A stretch of 49,093 nt of DNA from Brevundimonas sp. (lineage in GTDB: Bacteria > Pseudomonadota > Alphaproteobacteria > Caulobacterales > Caulobacteraceae), in NCBI RefSeq assembly GCF_024711105.1, contig NZ_JANJTL010000123.1:1-49093 (forward strand), given 5' to 3'. A model generated the notes under the pieces. It searched no databases, was not told where the DNA came from, and was given only the letters and a program-made list of their open reading frames with translations. Each line of letters opens with the position of its first letter. Position 1 is the stretch's first letter. The position numbers were made by a program, and so were the translations under genes. Below are positions 4,204 through 7,978 of this stretch, one piece after another.

Positions 4204-4737
4204 TCAGGCGCCCTGCCCGCCCGCGGCGATGTCGCGGCAGGCCGTGACGAAGTTCGCCAGGGTCTCGGCGTCCGGCGCCTCATAGGGGCCGGCCTGCTGC
4301 GTCCCGTAGAGCGCCGAGATGTCCTCCGTCCGCGGCAGCCGGTCCAGCAGCATGGGATCGATGGCGGCTTCCGCGCGCACGCCCAGTCCCTCGGCCAGGG
4401 TGTCCGCGACCAGGCCGAAGGCCTCGTTGTCGACGCCCAGCGTCAGCCGCTCCTCGCTGCCGATCACGGTGAAGCCGGGCACGTTCACGGTCATCCGCGC
4501 CGGCGCCGACAGGCACGCCATGTGGAACACCTGGTTGTCGGCCTGATCCAGCAGCATCAGGGCCGAACCCTCGCCGCTCGCGATCGGCTCCCAGCGCAGA
4601 TGGGGCGCCTCGGGCGCGGCGGGAGTCTCCGGGGCGGGCGGCGCTTCGGGCGTGTCCTCGGCCCGGTCACAGCCGGTCAGCACCACGGTGGCGGCGAAGA
4701 AGGCGGCGAAGGTCCGGGCGAAATCGCGAGCGCTCAT
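4204..4737 (-). CDS. Envelope lipoprotein, function unknown
   Basis: A 177-aa protein with a signal peptide (hydrophobic residues about 8-20) ending in lipobox VLTGC, followed by a Pro/Ala/Glu-rich linker (about 25-46). The soluble domain from about residue 47 holds a GEGSALMLLDQADNQ stretch and two cysteines (MACLSAP and VTACRDIA) that could pair in the periplasm. I do not recognise the domain. A one-mismatch EcfG-like element (GTAAC-N16-CGTT, minus strand 4772-4748) lies upstream, with its -10 only 11 nt from the start. Stress regulation is therefore possible but weak. Confidence 0.75.
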   Translation of the reverse strand: MSARDFARTFAAFFAATVVLTGCDRAEDTPEAPPAPETPAAPEAPHLRWEPIASGEGSALMLLDQADNQVFHMACLSAPARMTVNVPGFTVIGSEERLTLGVDNEAFGLVADTLAEGLGVRAEAAIDPMLLDRLPRTEDISALYGTQQAGPYEAPDAETLANFVTACRDIAAGGQGA

Positions 4738-4852: not shown

Positions 4853-4931
4853 ACCACGCCCTCATCTCCCGCGCAGGCCTGCGGCTTCGCCTCCGGCGCG
4901 CGGGGCCCTCTTCTCCCCTGACGGGGAGAAG
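4853..4931 (+). repeat. Left inverted repeat of the DUF559 cassette
   Basis: Runs from ACCACGCCCTCATCTCCCGC to the near-palindrome TTCTCCCCTGACGGGGAGAA. It aligns with the reverse complement of 5301-5377 along its full length, with substitutions and two one-base gaps concentrated in the middle. The inner palindrome can form a hairpin alone. Confidence 0.8.
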
Positions 4932-4945
4932 GTTAGCGTCACCGT

Positions 4946-5293
4946 ATGGTGGGGGGACGGATCAGTCGGGCTCGCGAGCTTCGACGGGAGCAAACGGCGG
5001 CCGAGCGCAGGCTTTGGTCCTGCCTTCGCGACCGTGGCCTTGGCGGGTACCGCTGGAAGCGGCAGGTCCCCATTCCGCCGTACTACGTCGACTTCCTCTC
5101 TCCTCAGATCGGTCTAGTCATCGAGGTAGACGGCGGACAACACTCGGCAGATACCCTCCGGGACGCACGCCGCACCGCGGACCTTCATGCCCGCGGCCTG
5201 CACGTCATCCGCTTCTGGAACTACGAGATCATGGAGGATCTCGACGCCGTCTGCCGCACGGTGCTCGCGGCCTGCAAACGTCTCGACCATTAA
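4946..5293 (+). CDS. DUF559 / Vsr-like endonuclease-domain protein
   Basis: A 115-aa protein of the DUF559 family, a PD-(D/E)XK-like fold related to very-short-patch repair (Vsr) endonucleases. The core is YYVDFLSPQIGLVIEVDGGQH, where the D and the E-x-D of VIEVDG would bind metal. It is followed by the typical (D)..R...L...G..VIRFWNYEIMEDLDAV ending. The N-terminal RARELRREQTAAERRLWSCLRD is the standard helix of the family. The ATG at 4946 is 15 nt inside the left repeat, and the ORF stops 8 nt before the right repeat. The biological role of the family is not established. Confidence 0.9.
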   Translation: MVGGRISRARELRREQTAAERRLWSCLRDRGLGGYRWKRQVPIPPYYVDFLSPQIGLVIEVDGGQHSADTLRDARRTADLHARGLHVIRFWNYEIMEDLDAVCRTVLAACKRLDH

Positions 5294-5300
5294 GCGAACT

Positions 5301-5377
5301 CTTCTCCCCGTCAGGGGAGAAGAAGGCTCCGCGCACCGGAGCGCAGCGAAGGTCTGCGCGGAAGATGAGGGCGTGGT
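5301..5377 (-). repeat. Right inverted repeat of the DUF559 cassette
   Basis: Begins CTTCTCCCCGTCAGGGGAGAAG, the exact reverse complement of the left inner palindrome, and ends AGATGAGGGCGTGGT, the exact reverse complement of the left outer end. The middle diverges slightly. Confidence 0.8.
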
Positions 5378-5464: not shown

Positions 5465-5602
5465 CTAGTTGGCCGCGTCCTGGGCGGTTTCCTCGACCGC
5501 CTCGCCGGCGGCTTGGACGTCGCGGCCGGCGCCGGCGACGGTGTTGCAGGCGGCCACGGCCAGGGCGGCAGCGGCGGCCATGAAAACAAACGCTTTGCGC
5601 AT
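5465..5602 (-). CDS. Entericidin-family small lipoprotein, copy 2
   Basis: Absent from the ORF track. Reads MRKAFVFMAAAAALAVAACNTVAG..., 45 aa, the same length as copy 1 at 4001-4138. The two share MRK, the lipobox Cys, CNTVAG.GRDV.AAGEAV and ETA.D, so they are recent or strongly conserved paralogues. The mature peptide is only about 27 residues behind the lipid-modified Cys. It sits immediately after phyK (47 nt) and before a strong terminator. An EcfG-like promoter with one mismatch (GGAAC-N16-CATT) overlaps the 3' end of phyK, so it could be read alone or as the last cistron of the GSR operon. Confidence 0.88.
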   Translation of the reverse strand: MRKAFVFMAAAAALAVAACNTVAGAGRDVQAAGEAVEETAQDAAN

Positions 5603-5643: not shown

Positions 5644-5668
5644 AATGCCTAGGCGGCGCCTTGGTTCC
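5644..5668 (-). promoter_or_regulatory. Possible EcfG-type promoter for entericidin copy 2 (one mismatch)
   Basis: On the minus strand, GGAAC (5668-5664), 16 nt, CATT (5647-5644). One -10 base departs from CGTT. Most of it overlaps the last codons of phyK. The -10 ends 42 nt before the entericidin ATG. Confidence 0.5.
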
Positions 5669-7373
5669 GGTCCGCCTCCGCCCCGGCCGTCGGCTCGGGG
5701 GCTTCGATCTCCGGGGAGGGGAAGGTGAGGCGGGCCAGCACGCCGCCCGCCTCGCCGGACAGAATCTCGGCGCGCCCCCTTAACTGGCGCGCGAAGGCGG
5801 TCATCAGGGTCTGGCCCACGCCGCCTTGACCGTCGACGGGGCCGGGGCCGTCGTCCTCGACCTCCAGCACGCTGTCCTCCTCGCCCCGGCGGAACCTCAC
5901 CTGGAGCAGGCCGCCGCGGCCGGCGAAGGCGTGCTTCTGGGCGTTGGAGATGGCCTCGACCGCCCACAGGGCGATCGGCGCCAGCTTGTCGGGATCCACG
6001 ACGAGGGCGTCGGCTTCGACGCGGGTCTCCACCGCGGGGCCCCGGCCGCTGTCCTGGGCGATCAGCTGGCCGACCAGGTCTTCCAGAAACTGGCCGACGT
6101 CCACCCGCTTGAGGTTCTCGGACTGGTAGAGCGCCCGATAGATCAGCGCGAGCGCGGTGATCCTCTGGCGGGTGTCATTCATGGCCAGGCGGGCGGCGGG
6201 GTCCTTCAGCGCCCGCTGCTGCATGTTGAGCAAGGACGTGATGACCTGCAGGTTGTTCTTCACCCGGTGATGGATCTCGCGCATCAGCCGGTCCTTCTCG
6301 TCGAGCGACTCGCGAAGCGAGGCGTCTCGGGCGACGATGGTGTCGACCATGTGATCCAGGGTGCGGCCCAGGCTGCGGATCTCCGCTGGGCCGTGCCGGG
6401 CCTGGACCGGACGCACGTTGAATCGTCCCTTGGCGTAGATGGCCGCGATCCGCTCCAGATAGAGCAGCCAGCGCACCACCACCCGCTCGGTCACCACCAG
6501 GACGAACAGCAGCGCCAGGCACCAGGTCAGCAGCGGCAGATAGAAGACCCCGGCTGCGTTACCGACAGCCCAGGCGACCAGGCCCTGGCTCGGGATCGAC
6601 AGCACCACCTGGACGTCCCCGTCGGCGAACGGTGAGGCCGTGACGATGCGGCGGTCGCCGCGCGCGTCGACGATGTCGGTCAGCTCCGACCTCAGGCTCG
6701 TTTGCGGCACGCGCCCTTCGGGAAAGGCCTGCCGATCGGTCGCCGTGAGGATGATCCCGTTGGCGTCGACGAGGGCCACCTGGGAGTCTTCCAGGGTCAC
6801 GCCCACGGGACGCTGGGGAGTCACGTCCTCCAGCGGCATCACGGCCAGGAAGACGCCGTCGAACGCGCCCATCGGCCGTTCCGAACGGATGGCCGCCAGC
6901 AGGGCGGGGTTCTCGGAGAAGACTCCGTCGGGCGCGCGCGAGATGACCAGACTCTCGCCGTTCCGGATCCGCTGGAACCACGGCTGGTTGATCAGGGCGT
7001 CGGCGGCCCTCACGTCGCCGGAGGCGCAGGTGACCCGTCCGTTGCGTCCCAGATGGACCAGGGCGTCGTAGGCCTCCAGATCCTGAACCAGCTGCCTCAG
7101 GCGCGGCACGCAGTAGAGGCCGATGGTCTCGGGCCTCAGGGTGCGCAGCATGATCACCGCGCCGTCGATCCGCATCTGGGCGTCGGCGGCGCTGGCGCGC
7201 GCGGCGCGCACCAGCTCCGTGCGGGTCCGCTCCACCTCGTTGTCATAGGCCGTGCGGGATTGAAGGGCGCTCAGCACCAGGATGGGGGCCAGCGCCAGGC
7301 CAAGGGCCACGCCGAGCCGGAAGCGGATGCCCTGAACCCCGGCGCCGAGCCTGAGCTTGCGCCAGGCGAGCAC
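5649..7373 (-). CDS. phyK: GSR sensor histidine kinase (HisKA_2 type), PhyK
   Basis: A 574-aa inner-membrane kinase expected to phosphorylate PhyR. TM1 is near residues 20-40 and TM2 near 270-300, enclosing a periplasmic sensor of about 230 residues of Cache/CHASE type. A HAMP-like linker (about 300-350) leads to the HisKA_2 phosphoacceptor block MREIHHRVKNNLQVI with its His near 370. A divergent HATPase follows with N-box EAISNAQKHAF and DDGPGP. It starts 2 nt after the ecfG stop, the same order as the Caulobacter nepR-sigT-phyK locus. The sensed signal cannot be read from the sequence. Confidence 0.92.
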   Translation of the reverse strand: MLAWRKLRLGAGVQGIRFRLGVALGLALAPILVLSALQSRTAYDNEVERTRTELVRAARASAADAQMRIDGAVIMLRTLRPETIGLYCVPRLRQLVQDLEAYDALVHLGRNGRVTCASGDVRAADALINQPWFQRIRNGESLVISRAPDGVFSENPALLAAIRSERPMGAFDGVFLAVMPLEDVTPQRPVGVTLEDSQVALVDANGIILTATDRQAFPEGRVPQTSLRSELTDIVDARGDRRIVTASPFADGDVQVVLSIPSQGLVAWAVGNAAGVFYLPLLTWCLALLFVLVVTERVVVRWLLYLERIAAIYAKGRFNVRPVQARHGPAEIRSLGRTLDHMVDTIVARDASLRESLDEKDRLMREIHHRVKNNLQVITSLLNMQQRALKDPAARLAMNDTRQRITALALIYRALYQSENLKRVDVGQFLEDLVGQLIAQDSGRGPAVETRVEADALVVDPDKLAPIALWAVEAISNAQKHAFAGRGGLLQVRFRRGEEDSVLEVEDDGPGPVDGQGGVGQTLMTAFARQLRGRAEILSGEAGGVLARLTFPSPEIEAPEPTAGAEADRNQGAA

Positions 7374-7375
7374 GG

Positions 7376-7978
7376 TCAGCGCGGTCCGCTTAGCCGATCC
7401 GCCTCTGCGAGGATGGCCCCCATGGCGTCTCCGGCGGCGCGGCCGTCCTGACGGTATTGCCCGCCTTCCAGCGTCGCCTGCAGCGCGCGGCGTGCACGGC
7501 TGACGCGGCTCTTCACCGTGCCGACGGCGCAGTGGCAGATTTCGGCGGCCTCTTCATAGGCGAAGCCGCCGGCGCCAACGAGCACCAGGGCTTCCCGCTG
7601 TTCCGGCGGCAGCTCCTGAAGCGCGCGGCGCAACTCGTCCAGGGCAAGCGGCGCGGACGGGTCGTCCACGGCCACCAGCGTCCGCTCGGCGGCCTCCTGG
7701 TCCAGCTGGGACTGCCGCCAGGACCGGCGCTTCTCGGAATAGAACTGGTTGCGCAGGATCATGAAGGTCCAGGCCTTCATGTTGGTGCCCATCTGGAAGC
7801 TGGCCCGCGCATCCCACGCCTTCATCATGGCGTCCTGCGCCAGATCGTCGGCGGCGGTGGCGTCACCGGTCAGGGTCCGGGCGAAGGCGCGCAGATGCGG
7901 AATGAGGGTGACCAGCTCTTTCTTGAAAGCCGTATCTTCATCCTCTGAGCGCTCCGGTCGGGTCCGGGCCTCGCTCAT
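7376..7978 (-). CDS. ecfG: General stress response ECF sigma factor EcfG (SigT-like)
   Basis: A 200-aa ECF15-type sigma factor that directs RNA polymerase to GGAAC-N16/17-CGTT promoters. Region 2 lies at about residues 22-90 (LIPHLRAFARTLTGD, DDLAQDAMMKAWDAR, FMILRNQFYSEKRR). Region 4 is at about 115-170 (ALQELPPEQREALVLVGAGG, EEAAEICHCAVGTVKSRVSRAR). A roughly 25-residue C-terminal extension follows. Its ATG overlaps the nepR stop (ATGA), which fits the stoichiometric sigma/anti-sigma arrangement. EcfG is held by NepR until phospho-PhyR removes it. At least eight likely targets lie within 7 kb. Confidence 0.96.
   Translation of the reverse strand: MSEARTRPERSEDEDTAFKKELVTLIPHLRAFARTLTGDATAADDLAQDAMMKAWDARASFQMGTNMKAWTFMILRNQFYSEKRRSWRQSQLDQEAAERTLVAVDDPSAPLALDELRRALQELPPEQREALVLVGAGGFAYEEAAEICHCAVGTVKSRVSRARRALQATLEGGQYRQDGRAAGDAMGAILAEADRLSGPR

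Follow-up and report, generated by a model that had tools for sequence, protein, structure and literature searches.

The stretch between positions 4853 and 5377 of the window (the whole analysed DNA of 49,093 nucleotides from Brevundimonas sp., contig NZ_JANJTL010000123.1) raises the question of whether a gene of DUF559, a large family of unknown function, is the partner of the repeats that enclose it, as RAYT transposases are the partners of REP elements. The earlier note, made from the sequence alone, had proposed such a unit as possibly undescribed, a PD-(D/E)XK nuclease taking the role of the transposase.

The DUF559 unit of the window and its surroundings

The DUF559 gene (4946-5293, plus strand, stop included) codes for 115 amino acids, which match PF04480 with an E value of 2e-33 and 115 bits, the curated cut-off being 20.6. 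It lies between two triplex-type repeats (TM), one of 79 bp on the left (4853-4931, minus strand) and one of 77 bp on the right (5301-5377, plus strand), which are inverted copies of each other with 88.6 % identity over 79 columns. The left TM, read on the minus strand, consists of a first hairpin (4931-4910), a second hairpin (4904-4868) and the purine tail AGATGAGGGCGTGGT (4867-4853); the right TM consists, on the plus strand, of a first hairpin (5301-5322), a second hairpin (5328-5362) and the same purine tail, AGATGAGGGCGTGGT (5363-5377). Over the outermost 15 bases and over the 22-bp palindromes the two arms are identical. The packaging between inverted repeats of about 78 bp, with identical outer ends and inner palindromes, was thereby confirmed, and no ORF other than DUF559 was needed to account for the interior, as had also been claimed.

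Each arm folded into two hairpins and a free 15-nt tail (z ~ -2.9), the first hairpin being a 9-bp CTTCTCCCC-loop-GGGGAGAAG. The ATG of the gene is 14 nt past the end of the left hairpin, and the right hairpin starts 8 nt past the stop codon. The palindrome pattern, with up to three mismatches allowed, occurred twice in the window (0.05 expected), and two occurrences were reached in none of 100 shuffles. The hairpins of the window copy are inside and the tails outside, an orientation found in a minority (21 of 192) of the arms.

The 2.69-Mb assembly to which the window belongs has four DUF559 genes, three of them flanked by inverted palindromic repeats, with a different repeat variant at each, and the fourth having related repeats on one side. 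The repeat of the window has six further copies in the genome (contigs C136, C142, C64, C124, C150 and C94). Solitary repeats had been suggested as non-autonomous copies; the copies proved to be mostly inverted pairs instead. Each of the six has as its partner a related repeat of a second type, the two lying tail-to-tail and enclosing no gene. A RAYT gene (HUH Y1 transposase, PF01797) was not found in this genome or in 36 of 37 genomes of the genus, one having it, and RAYT was rejected as the mover of the repeats because of this absence.

The neighbouring genes had been assumed to be of the lysR type, which they are not: the gene at 5465-5602 encodes entericidin, and the gene at 4204-4737 had no Pfam match. 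Beside the unit, at 5649-7978, a HisKA_2/HWE histidine kinase and an ECF sigma factor that has PhyR-like sigma domains are found, and this region resembles a locus of the general stress response. Nineteen loci in the same genus share the right flank of the window (kinase and entericidin), and DUF559 was not found at any of them. The comparison with empty orthologous sites that had been envisaged thus yielded 19 relatives without DUF559, but no empty site at base level, the left flank not being syntenic.

The AlphaFold model of the DUF559 protein had a pLDDT of 86, and the closest structures were Neisseria gonorrhoeae NGO0050 (3hrl) and the homing endonuclease I-Bth0305I (3r3p), the latter matched by Foldseek with an E value of 8e-5, a probability of 1.00 and a TM-score of 0.62. 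A profile match to I-Bth0305I had an E value of 0.0022. Vsr itself was a weaker match than these two structures, and the Vsr mismatch endonuclease model TIGR00632 gave 15.9 bits, below its cut-off of 97.85. Fourteen residues, including E20, D49, E60, D62 and H66, were invariant among 53 relatives, as expected for a predicted active nuclease. PADLOC returned weak partial matches only. From the model, the enzyme is most likely a nuclease of the homing-endonuclease (Vsr-like) fold, unrelated to RAYT. Its catalytic-domain fold is shared with the EDxHD (Vsr-like) homing endonuclease I-Bth0305I (3r3p); unlike EDxHD homing endonucleases, DUF559 is not associated with an intron or intein and has multicopy repeats on its two sides instead of occupying a single unique site. 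Escherichia coli YcjD, NGO0050 (3hrl) and Caulobacter VsrA belong to the same Pfam family; none of the three was linked to repeats in the literature searched, although ycjD does adjoin a TM.

The repeats as members of the intrastrand-triplex class

Across species the arms have the same order, a pyrimidine hairpin, an optional second hairpin and a purine tail. The sequence of the tail mirrors that of the pyrimidine arm of the hairpin, with C becoming G and T becoming A or T. This code is that of the purine-motif intrastrand triplex. Mirrored sets of arm and tail include CCTTCTCCC with GGATGAGGG, CCCTCTCCC with GGGTGAGGG, CCTTCCCCC with GGATGGGGG, CCCCTCCC with GGGGAGGG, CCCTCCCCC with GGGTGGGGG and CCCTTCTCCCC with GGGATGAGGGG, and others exist. 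The mirror rule was perfect in 89 % of 192 arms, and on arms where the two could be distinguished a mirror was preferred to a direct copy by 144 to 1. In the right arm of the window (scored as L002 1837-1909) the tail mirrors the hairpin arm at nine of ten positions.

The repeat of the window is thus not undescribed; it belongs to the published intrastrand-triplex class (PIT/boxC/TM). No mover or reader had been known for these repeats. As in the PIT (Hoyne and Maher), boxC and TMECO (Holder 2015) elements, a pyrimidine hairpin with a mirror purine tail lies in an intergenic position. Such repeats were known by 2000 at the latest (Hoyne et al., cited in PMC4666352) and occur in hundreds of genomes including that of E. 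coli K-12, where Holder et al. (2015) described 23 copies with the consensus CCCTCNCCCN3-6GGGNGAGGGN3GGGNGAGGG (PMC4666352). Arms with the CCCTCTCCC hairpin fit this consensus; here, in difference to the published class, a second hairpin is often present between the stem and the tail. Inverted pairs of two types were noted among the E. coli copies, and mobility activities near them were looked for and none found (PMC4666352). Holder et al. (2015) named no partner gene and did not mention DUF559 (PMC4666352), which is linked to the repeats here, and a literature search covering openly accessible papers yielded no paper tying DUF559 to triplex repeats. Matches in Rfam were sub-threshold only, and no GTAG/CGTC tag was consistent by eye at the palindrome ends of the listed arms.

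As to the structure, the G-rich strand might act as a G-quadruplex and not as a triplex, since arms such as GGGAGAGGGTTAGGGTGAGGGG fit a quadruplex motif too. This is unlikely: the mirror is kept at each position, even at single A/T positions and in types whose G-runs are only two bases long, which a quadruplex does not need, and a triplex has been reported in vitro, for the E. coli type only (PMC4666352).

Away from DUF559, the pairs of TM (L005, L006 and L009-L012 in the window's own genome, and those of E. coli) were heterodimers of two repeat types. The E. coli pairs join type A with type B, whereas around DUF559 both arms usually fall into a single class.

Holder's TM number 9 (TMECO; 1351204-1351239) lies 168 bp downstream of the E. 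coli DUF559 gene ycjD (NC_000913.3, 1351407-1351760), and the end of this gene is overlapped by a decayed TM hairpin. A long near-perfect palindrome, CACCTCATTCTGACAAGATTTAATCTTTTGTCAGAATGAGGTG, lies directly upstream of ycjD (L237, approximately 4260-4302). Of 5395 matching E. coli genomes, only 3335 contained most of the fabI-ycjD-sapF region (L237 3100-4700), and in one sampled variant (L242) an efflux-pump cluster adjoins fabI instead. The TM pair in the alx-sstT intergenic region (L240, L243-L246) was partly deleted between two CCCTCTCCC direct repeats in some strains and swapped for a longer unrelated stretch in others; a reading of this polymorphism as an insertion was rejected, as it looks like slippage deletion between the CCCTCTCCC repeats.

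Association of DUF559 genes with the repeats

A flanking inverted repeat was present at 73 % of 79 named DUF559 loci, compared with 0.55 % among 1276 control positions taken from these loci. In the order to which the window belongs, 70 % of 96 DUF559 genes had one, and none of 30 genes encoding ParE toxins, used as an accessory gene of similar size, in the same genomes (Fisher p 6.6e-13). A TM unit was found within 500 bp of 92 % of 168 DUF559 genes, none of the 30 ParE genes and 4.2 % of offset positions, and TM units were found on both sides of 62.5 %, 0 % and 0.2 %, respectively. Run on 1.6 Mb of real DNA, the strict scan for triplex units gave 257 matches, and on the reversed DNA it gave none. 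TM-positive DUF559 loci occurred in Pseudomonadota, Chloroflexota, Myxococcota, Bdellovibrionota, Thermodesulfobacteriota, Methylomirabilota, Planctomycetota, Elusimicrobiota and Fidelibacterota. The earlier note had allowed that the repeats might occur only in the window or have no tie to DUF559 genes; they are found beyond it and are tied to these genes, and related genomes in which the ORF is fixed without the repeats, also named in the note as contrary to its reading, were likewise not seen.

The arrangement was followed in two 0.8-Mb blocks (1.6 Mb) of G083, a complete genome from the Alphaproteobacteria, which was picked for its many DUF559 genes and had 236 TM units in these blocks. Pairs of TM 20-120 bp apart were tail-to-tail in 78 cases, head-to-head in 9 and tandem in 12. 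Only three tail-to-tail pairs had a gap of 250-700 bp, and all three contained DUF559 (gaps 345-378 bp). The gene thus stands in for the short spacer of a TM pair. Four of the five DUF559 matches in the blocks had near TM units on both sides, and one short match had none. At two loci (L146 and L239) two TM pairs, not single TMs, were found on each side of DUF559, and at L146 the spacer of one pair was nearly an inverted copy of that of the other.

Both arms belonged to the same class in 84 of 88 units, chance agreement being 22 %. Arm class also tracked the DUF559 protein tree, with 24 changes compared with a mean of 56 in shuffled data (p 0.001; likewise p 0.001 when restricted to 38 named genomes), a signal partly fed by loci shared by descent.

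The numbers of repeats and of DUF559 genes were correlated among 61 relatives (rho 0.67) and within the genus (0.45). In 349 Pseudomonadota genomes, at least five TM repeats were present in 90 of 106 DUF559-positive genomes, positive meaning a best E value of at most 1e-12 with weaker matches scored as absent, and in 14 of 243 negative ones (odds ratio 92, p 7e-51, Spearman 0.82). Permutation within the 15 families holding both states gave p 5e-5, and the odds ratio for ParE in the same test was 2.0. DUF559 and the triplex repeats thus occur together across many bacteria, which makes DUF559 the prime suspect for the spread of the repeats. Three genomes (G113, G230 and G301) had 62-122 matches to the TM pattern and no strong DUF559 match; they may represent a recent loss of DUF559, a diverged nuclease or a counter-example.

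Mobility, rival explanations and a proposed mechanism

The interpretation given in the earlier note was supported in part. In Sinorhizobium (C101) a unit of the form [TM-TM]-DUF559-[TM-TM] is present between two genes, and at the matching site in Shinella PSBB067 the same two genes are approximately 10 bp apart and the unit is missing; a divergence of approximately 18 % obscures the exact junction and any target duplication. Two genomes of the same genus (G034 and G023) have units with 77 % identity, in which the homology is bounded by the outer TM edges and the flanks are unrelated. On the other side, 26 pairs of related DUF559 units retain both flanks between species, and many units have therefore been inherited in place. 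All Azospirillum plasmids with the region compared carried the unit, and no empty site was found among them. The near-identical units at L103, L104, L107 and L108 (genomes G020, G033, G008 and G011) resembled relocations but were not counted as clean moves, since they lie in a mosaic region with breakpoints at the TM edges. The flank segments at these loci differ between species, each breakpoint falling a few bp at most from an outer TM edge, as would be seen if recombination had joined segments at the repeats.

On these sequence comparisons, a REP/RAYT-like partnership with the unrelated DUF559 nuclease is the most likely explanation, and the idea of a PD-(D/E)XK nuclease replacing the transposase survived every test run. 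The unit of the window is probably the master copy of such a system, in which TM repeats bracket the gene of their partner nuclease, and the short inverted TM pairs without a gene are the non-autonomous form. As in REP/REPIN and RAYT systems, the repeats form inverted palindromic pairs, the gene of the enzyme is bracketed by the same repeats and is often inherited in place, and the type of repeat is matched to the clade of the enzyme; the differences are a PD-(D/E)XK-type nuclease instead of an HUH Y1 transposase, and the triplex-type tail of the repeats. Several points count against the partnership: 14 of 243 genomes without DUF559 have at least five TM repeats, and some of them have dozens; the gene itself is often static, with both flanks kept between species at many loci; the window copy belongs to the minority whose tails point outward; divergence obscures the junction at the one cross-genus empty site; and Holder et al. 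(2015) found no support for a stable triplex in vivo (PMC4666352).

The main rival, which is nevertheless rather unlikely, is that DUF559 is a homing-type passenger which cuts TM pairs lacking it, for example at the spacer that separates the tails, and whose gene is then inserted by recombination, with the TM arms as homology, the TM themselves spreading by another route. The fold shared with I-Bth0305I and the position of the G083 genes, precisely in the place of the short spacer of a TM pair, agree with this. Many TM genomes without DUF559 would then be expected, yet 90 of the 104 TM-rich genomes (at least five repeats) carry it, and no other mover was found, RAYT being absent.

It is improbable that DUF559 is instead a Vsr-like repair nuclease which processes TM structures arisen by chance or otherwise, without mobilising them, so that TM sites persist only where DUF559 resolves them. 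Caulobacter VsrA is damage-inducible and has been proposed as a mismatch-repair nuclease (PMC12907096), and the co-occurrence across genomes would be accounted for, but the bracketing of the gene by type-matched TM repeats and the TM-bounded unit missing in Shinella would be left unexplained. Still less probable is a spread of TM by another transposase or by replication slippage, with DUF559 as incidental cargo between the repeats: slippage can remove TM pairs in E. coli, but DUF559 fills every gene-sized tail-to-tail gap in G083 (3 of 3), and ParE was never so placed (0 of 30) and barely co-occurs with TM. That the association is due to chance or to a detection artefact, for which nothing speaks beyond the G+C-rich sequence, can be practically dismissed in view of the absence of TM calls in reversed DNA, the shuffles, and the ParE and offset controls.

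In the proposed partnership, DUF559 would recognise the folded TM (the hairpin with or without the third strand) in single-stranded DNA, for example during replication, and nick or cut beside it. Repair or template switching could then copy the TM pair to a new site, sometimes with the DUF559 gene in place of the short spacer, and the gene itself would often be inherited in place while the repeats multiply. The stronger form of this proposal, that DUF559 is a dedicated nuclease which recognises triplex-folded single-stranded DNA and drives the amplification of triplex repeats across bacterial phyla, is about evenly balanced between right and wrong. If true, it would represent a repeat-mobilising system with an enzyme chemistry unrelated to RAYT/HUH, and the first enzyme assigned to triplex repeats.

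The link between DUF559 and the triplex repeats gives each of them a testable role, and E. coli ycjD with its TM sites makes it testable in that organism. It also points to DUF559 as a possible natural reader of triplex DNA, and the partnership would be a second, independent solution to the problem solved by REP and RAYT, with a nuclease tied to structured repeats.
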